Shown piece after piece: positions 36,132-62,690 of a stretch of 64,000 nt of DNA. The notes below the pieces were generated by a model, which saw only the letters and a list, made by a program, of their open reading frames with translations, was not told where the DNA came from and ran no database searches. Made by a program: the position numbers and the translations under genes. The DNA is taken from assembly GCF_019052805.1 (NCBI RefSeq), contig NZ_JAHQRJ010000003.1, positions 434,001-498,000 on the forward strand, written 5' to 3'. This stretch comes from Noviherbaspirillum sp. L7-7A. Its GTDB lineage: Bacteria > Pseudomonadota > Gammaproteobacteria > Burkholderiales > Burkholderiaceae_D. The number at the start of each line of letters is the position of its first letter. Position 1 is the stretch's first letter.

Positions 36132-37349
36132 TCAGGCCGCCTGTTTGCGTGCCTGCGCCTTGCCGGCCATCAGCTGCTCCATTGCGGCATTCACACCGCT
36201 GCCGGCCAGCGGCACGCCGGCGAGCTTGAGGCCCATCTCGCAGCCGGACAGCGTTGCCATCAGCGACAGGTCATTGGCTTCGCCCAGATGGCCGATGCGA
36301 AACATGCGGCCCTTTAGCTTGCCCAGGCCGGTGCCCAGCGACATGTCGAAGTTGTCGTAGATGATGCGGCGCACCTGGTCGGCATCGACGCCTTCCGGCA
36401 TCACCACGCCGGTCAGGATGGGCGAATAGACATTTGGGTCGGCGCACTGGACTTCCAGGCCCCATGCGTGCACTGCGGCCCGGGCGGCGGCGGCCAGGCG
36501 CTGGTGGCGGGCAAACACATTGTCCAGGCCTTCGCCGAGGATCATCTCCAGCGCTTCATGCAGGCCGTACAGCAGGTTGGTGTTCGGGGTATAGGGCCAG
36601 TAGCCGGTCTTATTCATCTCGATGATGTCGGTCCAGTCCCAGAAGGCCCGCGGCAGTTTCGCGTTCCTGCTGGCGGCGATCGCTTTCTTCGACACCGCAT
36701 TGAAGCTGATGCCGGGCGGCAGCATCAGGCCCTTCTGCGAGCCTGACACCGTGACGTCCACGCCCCATTCATCGTGACGGTAATCCGCCGCGGCCAGGCC
36801 GGAAATTGTATCGACCAGCAGCAGCGCCGGATGGCCGGCCGCATCGATGGCGCGGCGCACCGCGGCGATGTCGGAAGTGACGCCGGTCGAGGTTTCATTG
36901 TGCACGACGCACACCGCCTTGATCTGATACCCCGGGTCGGCCTTCAGGCGCGCCTCGATCTGATCGGCCTGCACGCCGCGACGCCAGCCCTCGATGCCCG
37001 GCAAGCCGAGAAACTCGGGCTTCAGGCCCAGCGCCTCCGCCATCTTCTTCCACAGCGTGGCGAAGTGGCCGGTCTCGTACATCAGCACATGGTCGCCAGG
37101 GCTTAGCACATTCGTCAGCGCGGCCTCCCATGCGCCAGTGCCGGAAGCCGGATAAATGATGACCGGCTGCTCTGTCTTGAAGATCTTCTTGATGCCTTCC
37201 AGCACCTTCAGACCCAGCGCGCCAAACTCTGGACCGCGATGGTCGATGGTGGGATAGCTCATCGCACGCAAGATGCGGTCGGGAACCGGACTCGGACCGG
37301 GAATCTGCAGGAAATGGCGGCCGGCGGGATGAAAGTCGAGGGTTAGCAT
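36132..37349 (-). CDS. Serine/alanine-glyoxylate aminotransferase family protein (SgaA-like)
   Basis: PLP enzyme of 405 residues. The PLP Lys is Lys206 in VSGSQKGLMLPPG, with LLVDTISGLAA upstream (Asp180) and IYPASGTGAWEAAL in the phosphate-binding region (about 65-78). The sequence fits bacterial serine-glyoxylate transaminases, which make glycine and hydroxypyruvate in the serine cycle or glyoxylate assimilation. It is divergent from a GntR regulator and followed by the YdiJ-like gene. The operator-like palindrome 37375-37390 lies 26 bases upstream of its start. Alternative amino donors (alanine, other L-amino acids) are possible. Confidence 0.9.
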   Translation of the reverse strand: MLTLDFHPAGRHFLQIPGPSPVPDRILRAMSYPTIDHRGPEFGALGLKVLEGIKKIFKTEQPVIIYPASGTGAWEAALTNVLSPGDHVLMYETGHFATLWKKMAEALGLKPEFLGLPGIEGWRRGVQADQIEARLKADPGYQIKAVCVVHNETSTGVTSDIAAVRRAIDAAGHPALLLVDTISGLAAADYRHDEWGVDVTVSGSQKGLMLPPGISFNAVSKKAIAASRNAKLPRAFWDWTDIIEMNKTGYWPYTPNTNLLYGLHEALEMILGEGLDNVFARHQRLAAAARAAVHAWGLEVQCADPNVYSPILTGVVMPEGVDADQVRRIIYDNFDMSLGTGLGKLKGRMFRIGHLGEANDLSLMATLSGCEMGLKLAGVPLAGSGVNAAMEQLMAGKAQARKQAA

Positions 37350-37570: not shown

Positions 37571-38317
37571 ATGCAAAATACAGATAACAATGCACTGGAA
37601 ACGGGACGCGTGCTGGTCACCAAGGTGGAGCGTCAGCGGCTGCATGACACGGTGGTCAGCCACCTGCGCAACCTGATTATCGAGGGCGCGCTGGCCCCCG
37701 GCATGAAGCTCAACGAACGCGAACTTTGCGAAACCCTGGGCATCTCCCGCACGCCGCTGCGCGAAGCGATGAAGGTGCTGGCGGCCGAAGGGCTGATCGA
37801 CACCTTTCCGAACCGCGGCGCCTTCGTTTCCCGCATGTCGCAGAACGAGATATGGGAAACCTTCGAGGTCATGAGCGGCCTGGAAGCGATGTCCGGCGAA
37901 CTGGCCGCCGCGCGCATCACGCCGGTCGAGATTGCCGAGATCAAGGCGCTGCACTATGCAATGCTGGCCTGCCGCGCACAGAACGACCTGCCCGGCTATT
38001 ACAGCCGCAACCAGACCATCCATAACAAGATTAATGAAGCCGCGCGCAATTCGGTGCTGCGCCAGATGTATCTGACGATGAACCGTCGGCTGCTGGCCTT
38101 GCGCTTCAAGTCTAACTTCCAGCCGGGCAAATGGGACAATGCGATCCAGGAACATGAGGAGATGATCAAGGCGCTGGAAGCGCGCGACGGCGCCAGGCTA
38201 GGCCATCTGCTGCGTCAGCATCTGATGGAGAAGCGGGATGCGGTGATCAAGGGCCTGGCCATGCCGGAAGCAGCGCTCGTCGAGCGGGAAGCAAGGGCAT
38301 CGCCCGAGGCGGCTTGA
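37571..38317 (+). CDS. GntR-family transcriptional regulator, FadR/FCD subgroup
   Basis: Regulator of 248 residues: winged HTH (about 18-85; LAPGMKLNERELCETLGISR then TPLREAMKVL) and the FCD effector domain (about 95-225) with metal-binding residues in NQTIHNKINEAARNSVL and QEHEEMIKAL. It starts at 37571 with GGAGG upstream. It is divergent from the aminotransferase/YdiJ-like genes. Two near-identical palindromes (37375 and 62781) suggest a regulon that includes the second tctCBA transporter. Confidence 0.9.
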   Translation: MQNTDNNALETGRVLVTKVERQRLHDTVVSHLRNLIIEGALAPGMKLNERELCETLGISRTPLREAMKVLAAEGLIDTFPNRGAFVSRMSQNEIWETFEVMSGLEAMSGELAAARITPVEIAEIKALHYAMLACRAQNDLPGYYSRNQTIHNKINEAARNSVLRQMYLTMNRRLLALRFKSNFQPGKWDNAIQEHEEMIKALEARDGARLGHLLRQHLMEKRDAVIKGLAMPEAALVEREARASPEAA

Positions 38318-38924: not shown

Positions 38925-39758
38925 CTAATACTTCGCCGAAGTAAACCGCCGGGAAGTCGACATCACCCGCAACTGGTTATCCACCCCAGTTACCCCCTGC
39001 ACCGCCGCCACGACCCGCTCTGCCTCGCTGCGCTCGGCATCGCTGATCACGATGCCATGCAGGCTGACCAACCCGCCGCGCGACTCGATCGTCACCTTGG
39101 TGTCGCGGGTGGCCTCGTTGTCCTTGAAGGCGGCGCGGATGCGCGCCGTCAGGGTCATGTCGGCCAACATCGCGCGCGATGCCTCGGTTTCCTGGAATTC
39201 CGGGCGCCGCGTCAGCTGCGTGATCAGTTCCACGCAGCTGGCCACTGACACCCGGTCGGTGTTAAGCACGAGATCGTACAGCAGCGGATCGCCCCAGGTA
39301 ACGCCAAATTGCTGGTGCATGCGCGCGGCATGAGCCTCGTCGCTGCGGCGGATCTCATCCTCGGCAAAGCCGCGGTCGTCGGTGCCAAGGTTTTCCATCA
39401 GCCAGTCCACGCGATTCCCGAACGAGCGCGTGATGCGCACGCCCACCACATGCGGCACCGGCCGCAGCATGCAGGTGGCGCCCCAACCGCGCAGCACGAT
39501 ATTGCCCCTGTTGGCCAGCTCGAACACCTCCTCGGCCGAATACACGGCGATCTTCTGCCGATCGGTGGTGAGGCGTTCGACAATGCCGGCCTTGCCTTCG
39601 CGAAGGCGGCGGATCACGCTCTTGGGCATGTTCATCTTTTCCGAAAGGCGCTCCACCACTTCATGCCGCATGGTATCGAGCTTCAGGGAGTCGGCCAGCT
39701 GCATGCCGACATCCTTGGCAAGCGATCCCATTTCCTGCGTGATTGCGATGACAGGCAT
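38925..39758 (-). CDS. Cytidylate-kinase-like domain fused to a BON domain
   Basis: Protein of 277 residues. The N-terminal 185 residues follow the cytidylate kinase 2 family (IAITQEMGSLAKDVGMQLADSL at the nucleotide-loop position, LRGWGATCMLRPVPHVVGVRI, then WGDPLLYDLVLNTDRVSV), although the P-loop glycines are partly replaced. The C-terminal BON domain spans about 195-268 (ARIRAAFKDNEATRDTKVTI, GVTGVDNQLRVM). It begins 13 bases after the tctA stop in the same direction, so it is the last gene of the tctCBA operon. The function is unknown; it may sense nucleotides or bind membrane. No signal peptide is seen, so the BON part is cytoplasmic. Confidence 0.82.
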   Translation of the reverse strand: MPVIAITQEMGSLAKDVGMQLADSLKLDTMRHEVVERLSEKMNMPKSVIRRLREGKAGIVERLTTDRQKIAVYSAEEVFELANRGNIVLRGWGATCMLRPVPHVVGVRITRSFGNRVDWLMENLGTDDRGFAEDEIRRSDEAHAARMHQQFGVTWGDPLLYDLVLNTDRVSVASCVELITQLTRRPEFQETEASRAMLADMTLTARIRAAFKDNEATRDTKVTIESRGGLVSLHGIVISDAERSEAERVVAAVQGVTGVDNQLRVMSTSRRFTSAKY

Positions 39759-39771
39759 GACATCCTCCTGA

Positions 39772-41301
39772 TCAGTCGACCGGCTGCTGCGCAGCCAGCG
39801 TGTTGACGGGCACTGGACGAATCTTCCTGATGACCAGGGAGATCAGCGGCCAGAACAGCAGGATCATCGCCAGCAGCGTGATGCCGCCCACCAGGAAGTT
39901 GGACCACATGATGGACAGCTCGCCCTGCGACACCAGCATCGCCTGCCTGAACGCATCCTCGGCCTTGTCGCCCAGCACCAGCGCAAGCACCAGCGGCGCC
40001 AGCGGATAGTCGAGCTTCTTGAACACATAGCCAATGATCCCGAACAGCAGCATGAACCAGATGTCGAGCATGGCGTTATGCACCGTGTAGGCGCCGATGG
40101 CGCAGATCACGATGATCACGGGTGCAATGATCGAGAACGGGATGCGCAGGATGGACGCAAACAGCGGCACGGTAGTCAGCACCACGATCAGGCCAACCAG
40201 GTTACCAAGGTACATGCTGGCGATCAGGCCCCAGACGAAGTCCTTCTGCTCGACGAACAGCAGCGGACCAGGCTGCAGGCCCCAGATCAGCAGGCCGCCC
40301 AGCAGCACGGCAGCGGTAGGCGAGCCGGGGATGCCCAGCGCCAGCATCGGCAGCAGCGCGCTGGTGCCGGCTGCATGCGCCGCGGTTTCCGGTGCCACCA
40401 CGCCTTCGAGCTCGCCGGTGCCGAACTTGGCGCCGTTCTTGGATGTCTTCTTGGCAATGCCGTAGCTCATGAACGATGCCGGCGTGGCACCGCCCGGGGT
40501 GATGCCCATCCAGATGCCGATCAGCGAGCTGCGGATGTAGGTCATGAAGAACTTGGGCAGCTGCTTCCAGGTTTCAAGCACCACCTTGGGGCTGATCTTG
40601 GCCGACTTGCCGGAAAAGGCCAAGCCTTCTTCCATCGACAGCAGGATCTCACCGATGCCAAACAGGCCGATCACGGCGATCAGGAAGTCGAAGCCGCGCA
40701 TCAGTTCGGACCAGCCAAAGGTCAGGCGCAACTGCCCGGTCACGGTATCCATGCCAACCGACGCCAGCGCAAAGCCAAGCGCCATCGATGCGAGGATCTT
40801 GAACGGCGACCCCTTGCCCATGCCAACGAAGCTGCAGAAGGTCAGCAGGTAGACAGCGAAGAATTCCGGCGGGCCGAATTTCAACGCGAACTTGGCCACC
40901 AGTGGCGCCATGAACGTGATCATCACCACGGCCACGAAGGCGCCCACGAAGGATGAGGTGAAGGCGGCCGCCAGTGCTTCGCCGGCCCGCCCCTTCTGCG
41001 CCATCGGGTAGCCGTCGAAGGTGGTTGCCACCGACCAGGGCTCGCCCGGAATATTGAACAGCACCGAGGTGATTGCCCCGCCGAACAGTGCGCCCCAATA
41101 GATACAGGACAGCATGATAATGGCAGAGGTAGGGGACATGCTGAAGGTCAAGGGCAGCAGGATCGCCACGCCATTGGCGCCTCCCAGCCCGGGCAACACG
41201 CCGATCAGCACACCCAGAATGATCCCGACAAACATCAGGACCGTATTCATCGGTGTCAGAACGACTGCGAAGCCATGGAACAGCGCGCTGATTTCTTCCA
41301 T
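39772..41301 (-). CDS. tctA: Tripartite tricarboxylate transporter large membrane subunit TctA
   Basis: Protein of 509 residues with about 11-12 hydrophobic segments. Highly conserved TctA motifs are present: GVLPGLGGANGVAILLPLTF (about 39-58), FNIPGEPWSVATTFDGYPMA and GAGTSALLPMLALGIPGSPTAA-type segments, and the C-terminal GDKAEDAFRQAM. ATG 41301 has GGAG upstream. It is third in tctC-tctB-tctA and followed 13 bases later by the kinase/BON gene. TctA forms the sodium-coupled transport channel. Its paralogue at 59559 is similar over most of its length. Confidence 0.95.
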   Translation of the reverse strand: MEEISALFHGFAVVLTPMNTVLMFVGIILGVLIGVLPGLGGANGVAILLPLTFSMSPTSAIIMLSCIYWGALFGGAITSVLFNIPGEPWSVATTFDGYPMAQKGRAGEALAAAFTSSFVGAFVAVVMITFMAPLVAKFALKFGPPEFFAVYLLTFCSFVGMGKGSPFKILASMALGFALASVGMDTVTGQLRLTFGWSELMRGFDFLIAVIGLFGIGEILLSMEEGLAFSGKSAKISPKVVLETWKQLPKFFMTYIRSSLIGIWMGITPGGATPASFMSYGIAKKTSKNGAKFGTGELEGVVAPETAAHAAGTSALLPMLALGIPGSPTAAVLLGGLLIWGLQPGPLLFVEQKDFVWGLIASMYLGNLVGLIVVLTTVPLFASILRIPFSIIAPVIIVICAIGAYTVHNAMLDIWFMLLFGIIGYVFKKLDYPLAPLVLALVLGDKAEDAFRQAMLVSQGELSIMWSNFLVGGITLLAMILLFWPLISLVIRKIRPVPVNTLAAQQPVD

Positions 41302-41366
41302 AACAAAACTCCTTTAATTCCGTTTTCACAGGCGCGCCCAGCAGGCCGCGCCGTGCCTGTTGGGGA

Positions 41367-41888
41367 TCAGTAGCCGAGGAAACTCAGCGGATCGTACATC
41401 CCCTTGAACAGGGGTACCTTGAACCACACCTCGAACAGGCAGAAGAACAGGATCGCCACGGCCAGCGCCACGATCACGCTGCGCACCCAGGAGTACTTGC
41501 CCAGGATGACCATGAACAGCGCGATATAGATGGCGGACGCGACATAGATGCCGATCACCTGGATTGCCAGCACATAGACCGCAGCCGGTACCAGTACCGA
41601 CATCACGCGCTTGAACTGCTCGCCATCGACGAAGATCTCGGTATTGCGGTTCTTGCCCAGCAGGGCCTGGTACAGCACGCCCAGGCCGGAGATGGCGGTG
41701 ATCAGCCCGATATAGAAAGGGAAATAGCCAGCGCCTGGACCATCCGAAGTCCAGCCCGAGCCCAGCTTGCGGCTGCCGAAAATAACGACCAGGCCGGCGA
41801 TCAGCACCAGCCCGGCGACGACTGCTTCAACGACATAAGTGGGAACGCCAGTGCGAGCGCCCTCGTCGGCTTCCTTGATTTGCTCCAT
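41367..41888 (-). CDS. tctB: Tripartite tricarboxylate transporter small membrane subunit TctB
   Basis: Protein of 173 residues with four hydrophobic segments (about 19-38, 47-66, 96-118 and 128-155). The SDGPGAGYFPFYIGLI segment is the TctB signature. It lies between tctC and tctA in the usual C-B-A order. It is needed for transporter assembly and function; its exact role in the complex is poorly defined. Confidence 0.92.
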   Translation of the reverse strand: MEQIKEADEGARTGVPTYVVEAVVAGLVLIAGLVVIFGSRKLGSGWTSDGPGAGYFPFYIGLITAISGLGVLYQALLGKNRNTEIFVDGEQFKRVMSVLVPAAVYVLAIQVIGIYVASAIYIALFMVILGKYSWVRSVIVALAVAILFFCLFEVWFKVPLFKGMYDPLSFLGY

Positions 41889-41979
41889 TTGTATGCCCCG
41901 ATAGAGTGATTGGACGGCGAAACCGGATGGGACCGGATGCGGGAAGGCGTTACCGCCATTGCCGCATCCCCAAGTCCCG

Positions 41980-43005
41980 TTACTGCACCAGGAAGCCTGC
42001 TTCCTTCATCAGGTCGCGATGCATGGTTTCGGTCTTTTCCAGCCACTGGGTGAACTCGGTGCCGGTCATCACCGTCTGGTTAAAGGCGCCCTTCTCCATG
42101 TAGTCCTTCCAGTCAGGCGTCTCACGGACCTTCTTCAGCAGGTCGAGATAGAACTCGGTTTGCTCCTTGGTCACGCCTGGCGGCATAAAGATGCCGCGCA
42201 ACATGGTGTAGCTGGTGGGAATGCCGCCCTCCTTGCAGGTCGGGATATCCGCCCAGGACTGGGTCTCGGTCACCTTGGCCTTGTAGTCCATGCGCTTCTC
42301 GTCGAACACGCAGAGCGGGCGCAGCTTGCCGGCGCGCCATTGCGCCACGGCCTCGATCGGGTTGTTGACAGTGGAATCGACGTGGCCGCCCACCAGCTGC
42401 ACAGCCACTTCGCCGCCGCCCTTGAACGGTACGTAGATGAACTTGGTGCCCACGGCCTTGCCCAGGCCGACGGTCAGAATCTGGTCTTCCTGCTTGGAGC
42501 CGGTGCCGCCCATCTTGGTCTTGTTGGGTCCGGCTGCCTTTACGCCTGCAGCAAAATCCTGCGCCGTCTTGTAGGGTGAATCGGCGTTGACCCACAGCAC
42601 GAACTGGTCAAGCGCCATCATGGATACCGGCGTCATGTCGCGCCAGCTGAAGGGAACGCCGGTTGCCATCGGCGTGGTAAACAGGTTGGACAGCGTGATG
42701 ACAATCTTGTGCGGGTCGCCCTTGGCGCCCTTGATTTCGAGGAAGCCTTCGGCCCCGGCGCCGCCAGACTTGTTAACCACGATCATCGGTTGCTTCATCA
42801 GCTTGTTCTTGACGATCACGCCCTGGATTAGGCGCGCCATCTGGTCGGCGCCGCCGCCGGTGCCGGCCGGCACCACGAATTCCACCGGTTTGGTGGGCTC
42901 CCATGCCAGTGCGGGCGCGCTCGCGAAGGCGGCAGCCACTGCCAGCGCGCACCCGGCAAATTTCAGTGAACCGCTGATGACCCTTGAATGCAATGTCTTA
43001 CCCAT
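41980..43005 (-). CDS. tctC: TctC-type periplasmic receptor of a complete TTT system
   Basis: Receptor of 341 residues. ATG 43005 has GGAGAC upstream; the frame is open to 43068. The signal peptide (about 1-34, cleavage after ALA) leads to WEPTKPVEFVVPAGTGGGAD, MIVVNKSGGAGAEG and YVPFKGGGEVAVQL, the Bug/TctC core. It heads the operon tctC-tctB-tctA-kinase/BON. It faces oxc-frc across a 920-base spacer with a TTGAC-N4-GTCAA palindrome near each side. An oxalate or related dicarboxylate ligand is a hypothesis from that context only. The receptor at 61662 is its close paralogue. Confidence 0.92.
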   Translation of the reverse strand: MGKTLHSRVISGSLKFAGCALAVAAAFASAPALAWEPTKPVEFVVPAGTGGGADQMARLIQGVIVKNKLMKQPMIVVNKSGGAGAEGFLEIKGAKGDPHKIVITLSNLFTTPMATGVPFSWRDMTPVSMMALDQFVLWVNADSPYKTAQDFAAGVKAAGPNKTKMGGTGSKQEDQILTVGLGKAVGTKFIYVPFKGGGEVAVQLVGGHVDSTVNNPIEAVAQWRAGKLRPLCVFDEKRMDYKAKVTETQSWADIPTCKEGGIPTSYTMLRGIFMPPGVTKEQTEFYLDLLKKVRETPDWKDYMEKGAFNQTVMTGTEFTQWLEKTETMHRDLMKEAGFLVQ

Positions 43006-43150
43006 TTCAGTCTCCGTCGTAGTTGTATTGTTGGACCAGCATGCTGCTGGCATTGCCGTTTGCCGCATTGGAATCTAACCGGCCTTGTTCGGATATTTTT
43101 CCGATTCATGGATGGGTACAAAAATACTGGACAACTTTGGAAAAAATTAA

Positions 43151-43166
43151 ATTGACCGATGTCAAT
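43151..43166. promoter_or_regulatory. Crp/Fnr-type palindrome on the tctC side
   Basis: ATTGAC-CGAT-GTCAAT, a perfect inverted repeat with 4-base centre, lies about 150 bases upstream of the tctC start. TTGA-N6-TCAA spacing is the known pattern of FNR/FixK/DNR boxes. The flanking TTTGGAAAA (43136-43144) and TTTTCCAAA (43166-43174) form an outer inverted repeat. Confidence 0.55.
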
Positions 43167-43774
43167 TTTCCAAATTTTCCCGGTGCAGATGGGATTACCA
43201 AAGCAGGGCCGGTATCGGCTTTCCGGGATAGGTCTCTGATACAGAAACCGCGTTTACTGTTTGGCTGCTGGGGCAGCAAAAACAACTCGTCAGGTAAAGG
43301 GGGTGTGCGGACCGAGCCGCCGCATCGCCAGCGGATATGACGGCAGGGACATGAGGGACCGAGCTATTCTGGTTTCTACTGTGTAACCGGGCTGATTCAT
43401 GAACTTGGTCTCCTCGTTCAATGCGCGGCGGCCATGACAGCATGCTACTGTCTGCAAACCGCCCTTCCCGCTTGGCCGGCTTCCACAGCATCGAGTAGCA
43501 AGGATGCGATCCGTATTGTGGACTGCCGGTGATGTGCCTGATGGCTACTGGTAACCTGGCACTGATTCTCAAAGAACGCTCGCGCTTTCTCCTTGATCGC
43601 GGTTAAGTTTCCAAAATTCCGCAAATTTAACTGGGCGCCTGGCTTTCCCCACTTGCGCAACCGGTTGGCGGTAATTTATTTTCGCCCTTTGCTAACAGGC
43701 TTTTTTCTATGTCCCTGTACCTGCTTGCGGATTCTTCCTTGCCGGACCGCAGGCAAAAACTCATGTTGTCAAAC

Positions 43775-43788
43775 TTGACCCTGGTCAA
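43775..43788. promoter_or_regulatory. Crp/Fnr-type palindrome on the oxc side
   Basis: TTGAC-CCTG-GTCAA is a perfect 14-base palindrome-type site whose centre is about 144 bases upstream of the oxc start. It has the same arms and spacing as the site at 43151-43166, which lies a similar distance from tctC. Confidence 0.55.
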
Positions 43789-43925
43789 TGAGAAAAAAGC
43801 CCGGCCGTCGCTATGATGGCCGCAACCTGACCCCGGGGCATCCTGCGGCGCGGGTCGGCAGACAAGCTGCCTGGCCATATCCCTTTATGGCGAGCGACAC
43901 GCATAAAACATACAGAGGAGAACGC

Positions 43926-45731
43926 ATGTCTTCAGTACTGAAAAAGACCGAGACCGACGAGACCACCCTGCTGAAAGAGCAGAGCCAGGAGGCAGGCCAG
44001 GCGCAGGGCGCGGACGTTGCCGAGCAGACCGACGGCTTCCACGTGCTTCTCGATGCATTGAAAGCCAATGACGTCGAGACCATTTACGGCCTGGTCGGCA
44101 TCCCCATCACTGACCTGGCCCGCCTGGCGCAGGCCGAGGGCTTTCGCTTCATCGGCTTCCGCCATGAAGCCAATGCCGTCAATGCCGCCGCCATCGCCGG
44201 CTACCTGACCAAAAAGCCCGGCATCGCCATGACCGTTTCCGCACCCGGCTTCCTCAACGGCCTGGTCGCGCTGGCCAATGCCACCGTGAACTGCTTCCCC
44301 ATGATCATGATCTCCGGCTCCTCCGAGCGCGAGATCGTTGACCTGGCCCAGGGCGACTATGAAGAGCTCGACCAGCTCAATGCCGCCAAGCCTTATGTGA
44401 AGGCCTCCTACCGCATCAACCATATCGAGGACATCGGCATCGGCGTGGCGCGCGCCATCCGCGCTGCCGTCTCCGGCCGTCCCGGCGGCGTCTATCTCGA
44501 CGTGCCGGCCAAGCTGCTCGGCCAAGCCATGGATGCCGCCGCCGCCCAGCGCTCCATCGTCAAGGTGGTCGACCCGGCACCGGCCCAGCTGCCCGCACCC
44601 GACGCCATCGCCCGCGCGCTGGACGTGCTGAAGAAGGCCAAGCGCCCGGTCATCATGCTCGGCAAGGGCGCCGCCTATGCCCAGGCCGATGCCGACATCC
44701 GCGCCTTTGTCGAGCGCACCGGCATCCCGTATCTGGCCATGTCCATGGCCAAGGGCCTGCTGCCCGACAACCATCCGCAGGCTGCCATCGCCGCCCGCTC
44801 TTACGCCCTGAAGGAAGCCGACTGCGTCATGCTCATCGGCGCGCGCCTGAACTGGCTGCTCTCGCATGGCAAGGGCCCGACCTGGGGCGGCAAGGACCAC
44901 AAGGACTGGGCACAGAAGAGCTTCGTGCAGATCGATATCTCGGCACAGGAGATGGACTCCAACGTGCCCATCGATGCACCCCTGGCCGGCGACATCGGCT
45001 CCACCGTCTCGGCACTGCTGGCCGCGATCGACCAGACCGGCTTCGACAAGCCCGATGCTGCCTGGACCGGCGCCATTGCCGAAAAGCGCGATGCCAACGT
45101 CGCCAAGATGGCCAAGACCCTGTCGGCCAAGTCCGCGCCGATGAACTTCATGACCGCGCTGTCGGCCATGCGCGATGTGCTCAAGGACAAGCCCGATGTC
45201 TACCTCGTCAATGAAGGCGCCAACACGCTGGATCTTGCGCGCAGCGTGATCGACATGATGGAGCCGCGCAAGCGCCTGGACTCCGGCACCTGGGGCGTCA
45301 TGGGCATCGGCATGGGCTATGCCATCGGCGCGGCGGTGACCAGCGGCAAGCCGGTGGTGGCGCTCGAAGGCGACTCGGCGTTTGGCTTCTCGGGCATGGA
45401 AGTCGAGACCATCTGCCGCTACAACCTGCCGGTGACGGTGGTGATCTTCAACAACAACGGCGTCTACAAGGGTTGCGATGTCAACCCCACCGGCGGCGCC
45501 GACCCGGCCCCCACCGTGTTCGTCAAGGGCGCGCGCTACGACATGCTGATGCAGGCCTTTGGCGGCGAGGGTTCGACCGTGAACACGCCCGAGGAACTGT
45601 CGGCGGCGCTGGCGCAGGGCATCAGTTCGGGCAAGCCCACGCTGATCAATGTGGTCATCGACGAGAACGCCGGCACCGAGAGCGGACGCATCACCCATCT
45701 GAACCCGCAGAGCGCAGCCAAGAAGAAGTAA
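43926..45731 (+). CDS. oxc: Oxalyl-CoA decarboxylase
   Basis: Thiamine-diphosphate enzyme of 601 residues that converts oxalyl-CoA to formyl-CoA and CO2 (EC 4.1.1.8) in the cytoplasm. The activating Glu is in [17 protein letters not shown] (about 78-94), and the ThDP/Mg motif runs [13 protein letters not shown] to IFNNN (about 481-511). The [19 protein letters not shown] start of the fold is typical of Oxc; an unusual Gln/Glu-rich N-terminal extension of about 35 residues precedes it. ATG 43926 follows AGAGGAGA. It is 58 bases upstream of frc in the same direction. Codon use is strongly biased to C-ending codons, which suggests high expression. Confidence 0.96.
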
Positions 45732-45789
45732 GCACGCAACGCATCCGAGCACACCAGAGAACAACCGAGACACTCAAGGAGATAGACAC

Positions 45790-47058
45790 ATGGACAAACC
45801 GCTGCAAGGACTCAAGATCATCGACTTCACCCACGTCCAGGCCGGCCCGGCCTGCACCCAGATGCTGGCCTGGTTTGGCGCGGACGTGATCAAGGTCGAG
45901 CGCCCCGGCGCCGGCGACGTTACCCGCAGCCAGCTGCGCGACATTCCCGATGCCGACGCGCTGTACTTCACGATGCTCAACTCCAACAAGCGCTCGCTGA
46001 CGCTGGACACGAAGAAGCAAGAAGGCAAGGACGTGCTGGAGAAGCTGATCAAGGAGTCCGACGTGATGGTGGAGAACTTCGGTCCCGGCGCGCTGGACCG
46101 CATGGGCTTTACCTGGGAGCGCATCCAGGAACTGAACCCGAAGATGATCCTGGCTTCGGTCAAGGGCTTCTCCGAAGGCCATCACTATGAAGACCTGAAG
46201 GTCTACGAGAACGTGGCGCAGTGCGCCGGCGGCGCAGCCTCGACCACCGGCTGGTGGAAGGGCGAGAATTCCGAGCCGACGATTTCGTCGGCGGCGCTGG
46301 GCGACTCCAACACCGGCATGCACCTGGCCATCGGCATCCTGACGGCCTACATCGGCCGCCAGAAGACGGGCCGTGGCCAGAAAGTGGCGGTATCGATGCA
46401 GGACGCGGTGCTGAACCTGTGCCGGGTCAAGATGCGCGACCAGCAGCGGCTGGAGCGGGTGGGCTACCTGGAAGAGTATCCACAGTATCCGCACGAGATG
46501 GAAGCCTTTGCCGACAAGGTCACGCCGCGCGGCGGCAATGCCGGCGGCGGCGGCCAGCCGGGCTGGATCCTGAAGTGCAAGGGCTGGGAGACCGACCCGA
46601 ACGCGTACATCTACTTCACGGTGCAGGGCCATGCCTGGGAGCCGATCTGCGACGCGCTGGGCAAGCCGGAATGGAAGACCGACCCGGCCTATACGACGCC
46701 GAAGGCTCGCCAGCCGCACATCAACGAGATCTTTGCCACGATCGAGGACTTCATCAAGGACAAGACCAAGTTCGAGGCGGTGAACGTGTTCCGCAAGTTC
46801 GACATTCCGTGCGCGCCGGTGCTGTCGATGAAGGAACTGCTGGTGGACGAGTCGCTGCGCAAGTCGGGCTCGATCGTGGAAGTGGAGCATCCGGTGCGCG
46901 GCTCGTACTTCACCATTGGCAGCCCGATCAAGTTCTCGGACCTGAAGCCGGAAGTGACGGCGTCACCGCTGCTGGGCCAGCACACCGACGAAGTGCTGGA
47001 AGAGCTGGGCTACAGCGCGCAGCAGATCGCTGCGATGCATGAGGCCAAGGCGGTGTAA
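45790..47058 (+). CDS. frc: Formyl-CoA:oxalate CoA-transferase
   Basis: Class III CoA-transferase of 422 residues that moves CoA from formyl-CoA to oxalate (EC 2.8.3.16), recycling the product of Oxc. Features are [19 protein letters not shown] at the N-terminus, [20 protein letters not shown], catalytic Asp about 172 in [14 protein letters not shown] and the mobile glycine loop [12 protein letters not shown] (about 249-260) characteristic of Frc. ATG 45790 follows AGGAGATAGAC. It forms an operon with oxc and is followed by a strong terminator. The pair detoxifies oxalate and can generate proton-motive force if coupled to formate export. Confidence 0.96.
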
Positions 47059-47086
47059 GCAGCACCCTGCCCTATCTCCAGAATCG

Positions 47087-47121
47087 CGTCCGGCTTCCGA
47101 CCAGGGGCCGGACGTTTTTTT
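47087..47121 (+). terminator. Rho-independent terminator of oxc-frc
   Basis: Perfect 8-base stem CGTCCGGC/GCCGGACG (47087-47094 and 47107-47114) with a 12-base loop, followed by seven T. It starts 29 bases after the frc stop. Confidence 0.9.
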
Positions 47122-47736
47122 ATGCCGGACCATGCCTGGACTGCATGGCCTCCTCTCCTGCTCGATGCCGGCCAGTTGCAGGGAAAATGCCTTCTTCACC
47201 GTCTGCCCTGCAAGCCGCCCTTCCCGCCGCCGTCATAAAAGACCAACGCTGGGCCTTGTCGCGGCGCATGCCGCATCCTTCCCTGAACGGTGAGATACGC
47301 GGCGATACCGGGGCGCCGCTGCCCGAACCGGCAATACGCCTGCCATGCGGCGCACCTGACCGCCCTGTCGACCGTATCCGCCAATGCAGTCCTGCACGCC
47401 CTTTCAATCGTCCCCGTCCACACGTGCGTACCAGTCATCCGGCCATTTCTTCCCTTGCCAGGGCGCTTGGCGATTCGCCCAGCGCCCTGGCGATCCTGGC
47501 CAATGACTGGTCGACCAGTTCGCTGGGCCCGATCGATGCGTGGCCCAGCCATCTGCGGCTGGCCGCATCGCTGATGACCGCTCGCCTACGGCAATGGCGC
47601 AAAGTTACATCGTGTAGTAGCCCAGTCGATTATGTCCCGCGGCGGATCACCTCATCCGGCAGGACTTGATTGACGACCAAGGGTGATCGAACAGATGCTG
47701 GAACGCGGCCATCCGCTTCCATCTCTCTGGTCGATC
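47122..47736. other. Gene-free, decayed stretch
   Basis: No intact gene. The only recognisable coding trace is the PAS-type signalling protein remnant at 47440-47590. The remainder resembles neither a gene nor a repeat. Confidence 0.5.
47440..47590 (+). pseudogene. Remnant of the N-terminus of a PAS-type sensor kinase or diguanylate cyclase
   Basis: The frame here reads LAILANDWSTSSLGPIDAWP then SHLRLAASLMTA. This matches the conserved DWsaTpLGPxxxWPqsLRxAvxLml motif that precedes the first PAS domain in many bacterial sensor kinases. Homology stops after it, and no PAS or kinase domain follows. It is therefore a truncated relic. Confidence 0.6.
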
Positions 47737-59558: not shown

Positions 59559-61058
59559 TCAGGCAGCGCGCAGCCGGTAGCGTTCCCGCAGGCCGCCTAT
59601 CACTGACCAGGCCAGTCCTGCTACGGCCAGGGTCATGATGGTGCCTACCAGGCCGTTGTTCCAGAAGATGCCCAGTCCGCCCTTAGAAGCCAGCATGCTC
59701 TGGCGGAACGCATCCTCGGCGCGGTCGCCCAGCACCAAGGCCAGCACCAGCGGCGCCAGCGGATAGTCAAGCTTCTTGAAAACATAGCCGATGATGCCGA
59801 AGATCAGCATCAGCCAGATGTCGAACTGGGCGTTGTGCACCGTGAAGGCGCCGATGGCGCAGATCACCAGGATCGCCGGCGCGATGATGGAGAACGGGAT
59901 GCGCAGGATGGCGGCAAACAGCGGTACCGAGGCCAGCACGATGATCAGCCCGGCCAAGTTGCCGAGGTACATGCTGGCAATCAGTCCCCAGACGAAGTCC
60001 TTCTGCTCTACGAACAGCAGCGGCCCAGGCTGCAGGCCCCAGATCATCAGCCCGCCCAGCAGCACCGCCGCGGTGGCCGAGCCGGGAATGCCCAGCGCCA
60101 GCATCGGCAGCAGCGCGCTGGTGCCGGCCGCATGAGCCGCGGTCTCGGGCGCGAGCACGCCTTCGACGTTGCCCTTGCCGAAGCTGTCCGGATTGCGCGA
60201 GAACTTCTTGGCCACGCCGTAGCCCATGAAGGAGGCGGCGGTAGCGCCGCCGGGCGTGATGCCCAGCCAGCAGCCGATGGCCGAGGAACGCATCAGCGTC
60301 ATGAAGAAGCGCGGCATGCCGGCCCAGGTCTTCAGCACCACCTTCAGGTCGATCGCTGCATGCTTGCCCTTGAAGGCCAGGCCCTCTTCCATCGTCATCA
60401 AGATCTCGCTGATGCCGAACAGGCCAATCACGGCCACCAGGAAATCGAAGCCGCGCAGCAGCACCGGCAGGCCGAAGGTCATGCGCAGCTGGCCGGAAAT
60501 CGTGTCCATGCCGACCGCGGCCAGCACGAAGCCGATGCACATCGAAATCACGATCTTGGCCTTGGGCTCCTTGCCCATGCCGACGAAGCTGCAGAAGGTC
60601 AGGAAGTACACCGCAAAGAATTCGGGCGGGCCGAAGCGCAGCGCAAACTTTGCTACCAGCGGCGCCAAGAAGGTGATCATCAGCACGCCCACCAGCGCGC
60701 CGATGAAGGAGCCGGTGAAGGCGCTGGTCAGCGCCTCGCCGGCCTGCCCGCGCTGGGCCATCGGATAGCCGTCGAAGGTGGTTGCCACCGACCAGGCTTC
60801 ACCAGGAATATTGAACAGCACCGAGGTGATCGCGCCGCCGAACAGCGCGCCCCAGTAGATGCAGGAAAGCAGGATGATGGCCGAGGTCGGGTTCATCGTG
60901 AAGGTCAGCGGCAGCAGGATCGCCACGCCGTTGGGGCCGCCCAGTCCGGGCAGCACGCCGACCACGATGCCGAGCAGGATGCCGATGGCCATCAGGCCGA
61001 TGTTCTGCCACGACAGCACCGTGGCAAAGCCATTCATCAGCAGGGATAAGTCTTCCAT
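59559..61058 (-). CDS. tctA: Tripartite tricarboxylate transporter large membrane subunit TctA (second system)
   Basis: Protein of 499 residues with about 11-12 helices. The signature motifs GVLPGLGGPNGVAILLPLTF, FNIPGEAWSVATTFDGYPMA, AGTSALLPMLALGIPGSATA and GDRAEDAFRQSM are present. It is closely similar along its length to TctA at 39772, pointing to a duplication. It is the last gene of the operon tctC-tctB-tctA and is followed by the bidirectional terminator. No kinase/BON gene accompanies this copy. Confidence 0.95.
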   Translation of the reverse strand: MEDLSLLMNGFATVLSWQNIGLMAIGILLGIVVGVLPGLGGPNGVAILLPLTFTMNPTSAIILLSCIYWGALFGGAITSVLFNIPGEAWSVATTFDGYPMAQRGQAGEALTSAFTGSFIGALVGVLMITFLAPLVAKFALRFGPPEFFAVYFLTFCSFVGMGKEPKAKIVISMCIGFVLAAVGMDTISGQLRMTFGLPVLLRGFDFLVAVIGLFGISEILMTMEEGLAFKGKHAAIDLKVVLKTWAGMPRFFMTLMRSSAIGCWLGITPGGATAASFMGYGVAKKFSRNPDSFGKGNVEGVLAPETAAHAAGTSALLPMLALGIPGSATAAVLLGGLMIWGLQPGPLLFVEQKDFVWGLIASMYLGNLAGLIIVLASVPLFAAILRIPFSIIAPAILVICAIGAFTVHNAQFDIWLMLIFGIIGYVFKKLDYPLAPLVLALVLGDRAEDAFRQSMLASKGGLGIFWNNGLVGTIMTLAVAGLAWSVIGGLRERYRLRAA

Positions 61059-61069
61059 CGCAACTCCTG

Positions 61070-61588
61070 TCAGTAGCCAAACGGCGCTTCCAGCGCACCC
61101 TTGGGCAGGGGCACCTGGAACATAATTTCAAAGATCCAAAACAGCGTGCCGCTAATGCCCAGGCCCACCAGCACCGACTTGAGCCAGCCGAACTTGCCAA
61201 TGAAGCGCATGAAGGCGGCGATGAAGATGGCCGAGGCCACATAGATGCCGGTCATCTGCAGCACGGTCACATAGGCAATCAGCGGCAGCAGCACGGTGGC
61301 CACCAGGCGCAGCTGCGCCTTTTCGACGAAGGGTTCGCTATCCTTTTTCTTCCATGCCTGGAAGATCACGAACAGGCTGCCAAGGAAGATGATGATGCCC
61401 ATGCGCATCGGGAAATAGCCGGCTTCGGGGCCGTCGCTGGCCCAGCCAGCGCCGAGCTGGTAGTTGCTGACGATGACGACCGCCGCCATCACGGCGATCA
61501 GGATGCCGACGGTGATCTCGGCCGTTCGGCGGGTAATGGCGGTATCGTTCCCTTCCGCCGGGGCGTGGGTGTCGTGTGGTGCGCTCAT
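61070..61588 (-). CDS. tctB: Tripartite tricarboxylate transporter small membrane subunit TctB (second system)
   Basis: Protein of 172 residues with four hydrophobic helices (about 23-41, 56-73, 95-118 and 129-155). The SDGPEAGYFPMRMGIIIFLG segment is the TctB signature. ATG 61588 begins MSAPHDTH; the frame is open to 61618. It starts 73 bases after tctC and ends 11 bases before tctA. Confidence 0.9.
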   Translation of the reverse strand: MSAPHDTHAPAEGNDTAITRRTAEITVGILIAVMAAVVIVSNYQLGAGWASDGPEAGYFPMRMGIIIFLGSLFVIFQAWKKKDSEPFVEKAQLRLVATVLLPLIAYVTVLQMTGIYVASAIFIAAFMRFIGKFGWLKSVLVGLGISGTLFWIFEIMFQVPLPKGALEAPFGY

Positions 61589-61661
61589 GATGTAGGGAAT
61601 AGCAATCCGTGGTAACAAAAACGCAGGGCCGCATGCGCAGCGCGCATGCCGCCAGAGAGAC

Positions 61662-62690
61662 TTACTTGGCCATGAAGCCGGCGTAGCTCATGATCTCCTT
61701 GTGCGCCTTCTCGTCCTTTTCCAGGAAGTCCTTCAGCGCCGGACCCACCGCCACGGTGGGCTTCAATGCATTCTTCTCGACATAGGCCTTCCATTCCGGC
61801 GTAGCCACCACTTTCTGGAACAGGTCTTCGTAGAACTTCACAGCCTCGGCCGGCACCTTGCCCGGCAGCAGGAAGACCCGCACCATCTCGTATTCCACGT
61901 CCAGGCCCTGCTCCTTGCAGGTCGGTATGTCAGACCAGCTCTGGGTCTCGGTGACCTTTTCCTTGTAGCTGCTGCGCGTCTGCGACAGCAGGCACAGCGC
62001 GCGATGCTGCCCGGCGCGCCACTGGCCGACCGATTCCGACGGATTGTTGATGTTGGAATCGATGTGCTTGCCCGAGAGCTGGGTTGCCGCCTCGCCGCCG
62101 CCCTTGTACGGAATGTAGGTGAACTTTACGCCGGCCTTCTTCTCGATCATCGCGGTGATCATGTGGTCTTCGCGCTTGGAACTGGTGCCGCCCATCTTGA
62201 AGGTTTCCGGGCTCTTCTTCACCGCGGCCAGGTAGTCGCCGACCGTCTTGTAGGGTGAATCGCTATTGACCCAGAGGACGAACTGGTCCTGCGCCACCAT
62301 CGCGATCGGCGTCAGGTCGCGCCAGTTGAACGGCAGGCCGGTCGCCAGCGGCACCGTGTACAGGCCTGACGAGGAAGCCACGATCTTGTGGGCGTCGCCG
62401 GTCGAGGCCTTCATGTCCAGCAGGCCTTCCGCGCCGCTGGCGCCAGCCTTGTTCTGGACCACGATGGCCTGCTTCATCAGCTTGTGCTTAGTGATGATGC
62501 CCTGGATCGAGCGCGCCATCTGGTCGGTGGCGCCGCCGGCGCTGAAGGGCACGACGATTTCCACCGGCTTGGTGGGCTCCCATGCTTGCGCCGCACCGGC
62601 GCCGCCCAGGCACAGCGCGGCCAGCGACAGCGCAAGGGCCGACCTGACGGGGCGTGATGAAATGGAACGATAATTGGAACGATCAGGCAC
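61662..62690 (-). CDS. tctC: TctC-type periplasmic receptor (second complete TTT system)
   Basis: Receptor of 342 residues. The GTG at 62690 follows a GAGGAGACAAC leader. The signal peptide spans about 1-35 (cleavage after AQA). Then WEPTKPVEIVVPFSAGGATD, AIVVQNKAGASGAEGLLDM and YIPYKGGGEAATQL follow. It is a close paralogue of the receptor at 41980, with shared WEPTKPVE and TETQSW-SDIPTCKE motifs. The palindrome at 62781-62796 lies 91 bases upstream and matches the one at the GntR/aminotransferase locus. Confidence 0.92.
   Translation of the reverse strand: MPDRSNYRSISSRPVRSALALSLAALCLGGAGAAQAWEPTKPVEIVVPFSAGGATDQMARSIQGIITKHKLMKQAIVVQNKAGASGAEGLLDMKASTGDAHKIVASSSGLYTVPLATGLPFNWRDLTPIAMVAQDQFVLWVNSDSPYKTVGDYLAAVKKSPETFKMGGTSSKREDHMITAMIEKKAGVKFTYIPYKGGGEAATQLSGKHIDSNINNPSESVGQWRAGQHRALCLLSQTRSSYKEKVTETQSWSDIPTCKEQGLDVEYEMVRVFLLPGKVPAEAVKFYEDLFQKVVATPEWKAYVEKNALKPTVAVGPALKDFLEKDEKAHKEIMSYAGFMAK

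Follow-up and report, generated by a model that had tools for sequence, protein, structure and literature searches.

We analysed a 64,000-nucleotide stretch (hereafter the window; contig C3, positions 434001-498000) of the 5.2-Mb genome of Noviherbaspirillum sp. L7-7A, in which the transporter genes tctCBA face oxc and frc, the genes of oxalyl-coenzyme A (CoA) decarboxylase (Oxc) and formyl-CoA:oxalate CoA-transferase (Frc). On comparative sequence grounds, we consider it very likely that TctCBA is a tripartite tricarboxylate transporter (TTT) system that imports oxalate and belongs to an oxalate regulon, and binding-protein-dependent TctCBA is probably a little-recognised bacterial way of oxalate uptake. 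The initial annotation of the region had proposed a candidate unit for oxalate uptake and breakdown, and the comparative evidence (linkage, co-occurrence, and shared boxes) supports this proposal. The kind of transporter is known; new are the regulon, the predicted substrate, and a linkage that persists when the partner enzyme changes. If the prediction is true, surveys would gain a second marker of oxalate uptake beside oxlT, the range of TTT substrates would extend to the smallest dicarboxylate, and candidate genes would be at hand for oxalate uptake that depends on a binding protein. The promoter and regulator pair would then likely be oxalate-responsive and usable for sensors and for work on soil oxalate turnover.

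All three TTT subunit families (TctA, TctB, and TctC) are present in the window by Pfam, and both enzymes of CoA-dependent oxalate degradation score above curated cut-offs (Table 1). A complete tctCBA set facing oxc-frc across one spacer, as originally described, is thus borne out by Pfam and NCBIfam, which assign all five genes; the spacer between tctC and oxc is 920 bases long. With regard to the OFA family of the major facilitator superfamily (MFS), each of TctA, TctB, and TctC matches its own Tct model alone in Pfam. We placed the tctC start at MGKTLHSR, where the protein has, by eye, a signal-peptide-like start with ALA before WEPTK. The best solved relative of TctC is 4x9t (E 4e-31), one of 11 distinct solved sequences at E ≤0.001, and no solved relative of TctA was found by sequence at E 0.001. 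Oxc starts at 43926 with AGAGGAG directly upstream, and the longer open reading frame from 43788 is unnecessary. The best solved relatives of Oxc and Frc are 7ayg (Oxc/YfdU, E 1e-251) and 1pt5 (YfdW, E 7e-200), respectively. Nothing unusual was seen in the two enzymes themselves, which are ordinary members of the Oxc/Frc oxalate pathway, the new part being the transporter and its predicted regulator.

In order to describe the neighbourhood in relatives, we took the best 80 of at least 575 TctC relatives, chosen blind to their neighbours and 72-96% identical to the window TctC, the closest among the matches listed being that of Noviherbaspirillum soli (96%). In 66 of these 80 loci, oxc is no more than 7 kb from tctC; conservation of the neighbourhood had been named beforehand as a check that could refute the proposal, and the neighbourhood is conserved. 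Among the 66 oxc-bearing loci, frc (at least 60% identity) is present in 60 and the gene of the regulator described below lies between tctC and oxc in 62, while TctA and TctB were both matched in 77 of the 80 loci. Twelve of the 14 loci without Oxc are contigs that end less than 3.4 kb past tctC, and of the remaining two, L009 carries an oxalate-CoA-ligase-like gene together with an apbA-like one and L048 carries frc. The divergent layout is real in the window but exceptional among relatives, where tandem operons are usual and only two of the 66 loci are divergent, namely L052 and L001, the latter from the same genus and with its Oxc truncated at the end of the contig.

The two functions also co-occur across genomes. 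We surveyed 200 genomes of the order with cut-offs of E 1e-180 for Oxc, E 1e-130 for TctC, E 1e-110 for OxlT-like proteins, and E 1e-55 for the regulator. Oxc was found in 36 genomes, TctC in 38, and both in 26 (Fisher p 1e-15, a test that takes genomes as independent, which they are not). In 21 of the 26 genomes with both, the genes are at most 6 kb apart; in one they are 41 kb apart, and in four they lie on separate contigs. A phylum survey of 398 genomes found TctC at E 1e-115 in 17. Eight TctC orthologs (63-67% identity) come from genomes sharing only the phylum, and oxc and frc lie within 9 kb in six of these eight. The six distant oxc loci gave no regulator match in the 20 kb examined, and TTGAY-N4-RTCAA was absent from the 20 kb examined in five of them. 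Two further loci of the order came from the phylum survey, one with a ligase-like gene (L146) and one with oxc (L147).

Genomes in which TctC occurs without Oxc provide the strongest argument for oxalate. There are 12 such genomes among the 200, and in nine of them tctCBA stands beside a homologue of oxalate-CoA ligase or beside frc. The gene is an acyl-CoA ligase in five (L117, L118, L119, L121, and L125). For the L118 ligase, the top four solved sequences are without exception oxalate-CoA ligases, led by Arabidopsis AAE3 (E 2e-129), and the next kind of solved relative is malonyl-CoA synthetase (E 1e-60); the ligases of the other four loci are 62-93% identical to the L118 protein. We take H214, S289, and H319 to be the relevant residues of Arabidopsis AAE3. 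Both histidines are present in all six ligase-like proteins, and the serine motif was found by pattern in four of the six. In four other Oxc-less genomes (L114, L115, L116, and L120) frc lies beside tctCBA, and three of these loci (L114, L115, and L120) also have a gene of a thiamine-diphosphate enzyme. Since the compound common to the alternative partner enzymes is oxalate, this change of partners points to oxalate as the substrate.

Some further features of these loci were recorded. The ligase homologues are located at 6264-7787 in L118, 12425-13951 in L121, 5325-6899 in L117, 1454-2965 in L125, and 5175-6710 in L009, and an apbA-like gene accompanies the ligase in L009, L118, L121, and L125. 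Judging from these sequences, an Oxc-free route from oxalate to glyoxylate via the AAE3-like ligase and the apbA-like gene is possible. The thiamine-diphosphate enzyme occupies the place of oxc between the palindromic box (see below) and frc in L114 (3500-5218), L115, and L120. Reading this gene as an Oxc of 25-27% identity was dropped. The best solved relatives of the one tested (L114) are 2-hydroxyacyl-CoA lyases; its best NCBIfam model is an acetolactate synthase, below the cut-off.

Active oxalate transport was reportedly described in Pseudomonas oxalaticus in 1977. The window system shares its three subunits, gene order C-B-A, and Pfam families TctA, TctB, and TctC with the TctCBA citrate transporter of Salmonella and other TTT systems, and differs from them in its predicted ligand, oxalate. 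The word oxalate is absent from the available portions of a TTT review (PMC5812351), which list citrate, aspartate, glutamate, nicotinic acid, sulfolactate, and terephthalate among the ligands and describe known TTT ligands, nicotinic acid excepted, as bearing two carboxylic groups or others such as sulfate or amide. By analogy, we count this pattern, as far as those portions give it, in favour of oxalate as the TctC ligand. Oxalate is named among possible Bug ligands, without gene evidence, in the accessible part of PMC2864759. No TTT system assigned to oxalate was found in the literature searched, in which subscription journals are little covered, and within that coverage the earlier statement that TTT-type import is not an established route for oxalate stands.

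Matching TTGAC-N4-GTCAA palindromes had been noted about 150 bases upstream of each operon. Both are exact, lie 146 bases (tctC) and 137 bases (oxc) from the start codons, and are conserved in relatives. No third site was found in the window with one mismatch permitted, and since 19 of 100 shuffles of the window reach at least two one-mismatch hits, this count is weak evidence by itself. Genome-wide there are 10 exact sites, versus 3 for a reversed control pattern. Given that number, and with both positions kept elsewhere, two boxes in one 920-base spacer are unlikely by chance. A census of 79 related loci (1.36 Mb, the near-identical L001 excluded) gave 125 exact sites versus 0-2 for each of eight control palindromes of the same letters, which rules out chance as the origin of the palindromes. 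In 50 of 77 loci, an exact box is located no further than 450 bases upstream of the tctC start as aligned, and TTGAY-N4-RTCAA is found at a similar distance in 16 of the other 27, for a total of 66 of 77; the control palindromes refer to the exact form only. Upstream of oxc, 51 of 65 loci have an exact box within 450 bases, nine of these 51 boxes extending 12-16 bases beyond the extrapolated oxc start. For eleven other families, we found no upstream box in nine, the other two being LysR (6 of 23) and OxlT-like genes (3 of 10).

The oxc boxes also keep a fixed distance to a promoter-like element. A TANNNT hexamer follows by 22 or 23 bases at 48 of 55 oxc-upstream boxes, with 0 or 1 occurrence at any other offset from 0 to 44, and the hexamer is TATGAT in 9 of the 12 rows listed. 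With a transcription start presumed about 7 bases past the hexamer, the oxc box would be centred near -41.5, where CRP and FNR bind as class II activators. A promoter scan of the spacer returned one site, no more than in shuffles. On the conservation and spacing of these sequences, we regard the paired palindromes as a real shared regulatory element.

The palindrome is predicted to be the box of a CRP/FNR-type regulator, to which it is linked by co-location, co-occurrence, and a site before the regulator's own gene. The regulator gene was observed in 65 of the 80 loci and in 40 of the 200 genomes. Each of these 40 encodes at least one of Oxc, TctC, and an OxlT-like protein, and 34 of them are among the 36 genomes with Oxc. 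It resembles CRP/FNR regulators in a distant match to CRP structures (E 1e-5 for ortholog P0005) and to 3dn7 (E 2e-9), in its E-T-L-S-R helix, in its predicted TTGAY-N4-RTCAA sites, and in the class II-like spacing, and differs from them in being a lineage of its own tied to oxalate genes; it has no NCBIfam match at E 1e-5. At every position of ETLSR, which we take to be the FNR form of the recognition helix, 95% or more of 75 orthologs have the same residue. In the window genome, the regulator gene (C3:123094-123702) is about 350 kb from tctCBA and begins 44 bases after its own box. Its product has one cysteine, compared to the four of FNR proper, and would therefore be without an FNR-type iron-sulphur site.

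A second oxalate cluster surrounds the regulator gene and contains oxc, frc, a second frc, and apbA-like, PAS, and formate dehydrogenase genes, the last also matching a gene annotated fdhF in Azospirillum. Its oxc-frc copy is 99.8% identical to that of the window over 3212 bases (window 43913-47124; L093 9052-12263, or C3:109051-112262), and the identity stops 13 bases before the oxc start. The promoters of the two oxc copies differ, yet both keep the box and TATGAT at 23 bases. As the copies are nearly identical and their upstream regions differ, the duplicate looks like a recent copying or gene conversion under kept regulation.

In the mechanism that we propose, TctC would capture oxalate in the periplasm and pass it to TctAB, which would move it inward on an ion gradient. 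Frc would transfer CoA from formyl-CoA to oxalate, Oxc would decarboxylate the oxalyl-CoA, and a formate dehydrogenase whose gene lies elsewhere in the genome would oxidise the formate. A dedicated CRP/FNR-type activator, binding at TTGAC-N4-GTCAA and at oxc sitting in the class II position, would turn on transporter and enzymes together. The role of oxalate as TctC ligand is read here from genomic context. A broader proposal, to which as a whole we give slightly better than even chances, is that these proteins form a distinct TTT subfamily. In at least two bacterial groups related only at the level of the phylum, this subfamily would be a main route of high-affinity oxalate import in aerobic oxalate users, together with either Frc-Oxc or bacterial oxalate-CoA ligases. 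In the order of the window, it would be controlled by a dedicated CRP/FNR-type regulator whose signal would be oxalate or a CoA ester derived from it.

A number of observations weigh against oxalate import by TctCBA within such a regulon. Three of the 12 Oxc-less genomes have no recognised oxalate-activating gene beside tctC; one of them (L124) is a short contig showing just apbA-like, FAH-like, and TauE-like genes, and in the others (L122 and L123) the neighbours are formate dehydrogenase or aminotransferase. The distant loci L140 and L144 have tctCBA and a distant GntR match, and no oxalate gene was recognised in them. Four oxc stretches from plasmid records of Caballeronia, Cupriavidus, Azospirillum, and Paracoccus, covering about 9 kb on each side, contain no TctCBA, the one from Caballeronia having an OxlT-like gene. 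A fixed box-hexamer spacing of the oxc type was not seen at tctC promoters. Five of the 10 genome boxes are not beside recognised oxalate genes, so other regulators may use the same site; four of these are on contig C1, beside universal-stress-like, acyl-CoA-synthetase-like, and other genes (names by eye), and the fifth is on C3, where the remaining five of six boxes lie in or beside oxalate clusters. The survey cut-offs were our own choice, and the counts are uncorrected for shared ancestry. OxlT-like genes share a locus with TctCBA in 10 of the 80 loci and in all six distant oxc loci. Finally, OxlT had been mentioned in the initial annotation as an MFS antiporter, and the window genome itself also has an OxlT homologue, on contig C2 (TIGR04259, 574.6 bits, cut-off 335).

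The oxalate:formate antiporter OxlT (8hpj) has the same predicted role, oxalate uptake for Oxc-Frc, and differs in being an MFS protein with one subunit and no binding protein. In related clusters it replaces or accompanies TctCBA. A search with P0006, whose best solved relative is OxlT 8hpj (E 2e-77), found OxlT-like genes in 8 of the 10 genomes that have Oxc and no TctC versus 2 of the 26 that have both (p 6e-5), the window genome being one of these two. The two remaining Oxc genomes without TctC or an OxlT-like gene are G052 and G180, and because G052 carries a TctC fragment at a contig end (L103), only G180 has neither transporter. This suggests that the two transporters can replace each other, although the rule is not strict; strict exclusion of OxlT by TctCBA is ruled out by the shared loci. 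The homologue on C2 keeps R272 and K355 (read off alignments), presumably the oxalate-binding residues of OxlT, and no exact box was found on that contig. Since the genome has this homologue, TctCBA need not be its sole oxalate route.

The shared loci and the OxlT homologue would also fit a division of labour in which OxlT-like antiporters import oxalate and TctCBA takes up a different acid that enters or leaves the pathway (glyoxylate, glycolate, malonate, tartronate, or mesoxalate), and the apbA-like genes near tctCBA point to glyoxylate. We judge this to be quite improbable. Of the genomes in the order with Oxc and TctC, 24 of 26 are without an OxlT-like gene at E 1e-110, and, going by known pathways, Frc-Oxc, oxalate-CoA ligases, and OxlT have oxalate in common. 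Moreover, glyoxylate, glycolate, and formate are monoacids, unlike most of the TTT ligands described in the portions of PMC5812351 that were available. That a transporter of an abundant family simply became fixed beside oxc-frc by inheritance of the neighbourhood, without a common substrate, would agree with the 52 TctC-family matches in the window genome and with the lack of correction for ancestry. We find it highly improbable, as there are only 7 TctA matches at E 1e-20 in the 5.2 Mb, the pairing persists while order, strand, and spacing vary between lineages, the partner enzyme switches from Oxc-Frc to an oxalate-CoA-ligase homologue, and the same box stands at both tctC and oxc.

A further alternative concerns the palindrome, which could be a generic FNR/ANR box answering to oxygen and not to oxalate; oxalate import by TctCBA may hold in either case. 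TTGAY-N4-RTCAA is the FNR-type consensus, and the boxes away from recognised oxalate genes, four of 10 on C1 and one on C3, would be expected of a generic site. Against this, the distinct regulator lineage tracks oxalate genes, being present in 34 of the 36 genomes with Oxc; the copy in the window genome starts 44 bases downstream of a box of its own and, with one cysteine, would hold no FNR-type iron-sulphur site. In addition, five of the six sites on C3 are in or beside oxalate clusters. An oxygen-responsive box is therefore unlikely in our estimation, and we retain the predicted oxalate-linked regulator.

We also compared the TctC proteins with their next relatives. In a FastTree analysis of 101 TctC sequences, which left out the distant loci of the phylum survey, the 94 close ones group with weak basal support (0.48); support is 0.91 with one more sequence included and 0.99 with the window paralog. 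Some TctC residues are kept only in this close clade. The next paralog clade (TctC 50-57% identical) has a class V aminotransferase gene in six of six loci and a GntR gene in five of six; no match to oxc, ligase, or apbA was found in these six loci, and two of them gave weak CoA-transferase matches (29-31%). The sequences suggest a separate transporter-enzyme pairing, and we count this contrast in favour of the oxalate reading of the close clade. A second complete tctCBA set in the window (59559-62690), with a TctC 54% identical to the first, groups with this clade, and no aminotransferase was found within the stretch examined around it (L130). An aminotransferase gene (36132-37349) and a GntR gene (37571-38317) of the window lie 21 kb from the second set, beside the first. 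This GntR gene was rejected as the regulator of the boxes, since GntR goes with the paralog clade elsewhere and the CRP/FNR-type gene tracks the boxes.

Table 1 Genes and predicted regulatory elements of the tctCBA and oxc-frc region. Positions are those of the window.
Feature	Position	Strand	Evidence
tctA, large membrane subunit	39772-41301	-	PF01970, 503.5 bits over positions 22-439, above gathering
tctB, small membrane subunit	41367-41888	-	PF07331, 77.6 bits, above gathering
tctC, predicted periplasmic oxalate-binding protein	41980-43005	-	PF03401, 108.9 bits, above gathering
TTGACCGATGTCAA, predicted CRP/FNR-type box of tctCBA	43152-43165	.	Exact TTGAC-N4-GTCAA
TTGACCCTGGTCAA, predicted CRP/FNR-type box of oxc-frc	43775-43788	.	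Exact TTGAC-N4-GTCAA
TATGAT, predicted -10 element of oxc promoter	43812-43817	+	23 bases after box, class II spacing
oxc, oxalyl-CoA decarboxylase	43926-45731	+	TIGR03254, 967.3 bits, cut-off 739.4
frc, formyl-CoA:oxalate CoA-transferase	45790-47058	+	TIGR03253, 717.4 bits, cut-off 504.2
Cytidylate-kinase-like and BON domain gene	38925-39758	-	PF13189, 102.6 bits; PF04972, 45.3 bits

Other genes were noted in or near the oxalate clusters. The kinase-like/BON gene lies directly after tctA here, as in many related oxalate clusters, and no fewer than 35 of 79 loci contain a relative of it with 50% identity or higher. In the second cluster, a gene of a small PAS-domain-like protein (by eye; L093 12287-12724) follows frc, as it does in many oxalate clusters. 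The same cluster has a gene of an HPP-type membrane protein (by eye) with CBS-domain-like matches (L093 12785-13987, or C3:112784-113986), which is preceded by the same box with a -10-like hexamer 23 bases on and is possibly a further transport gene of the regulon. Genes similar to it (37-43%) are found in L049, L054, L061, and L074.

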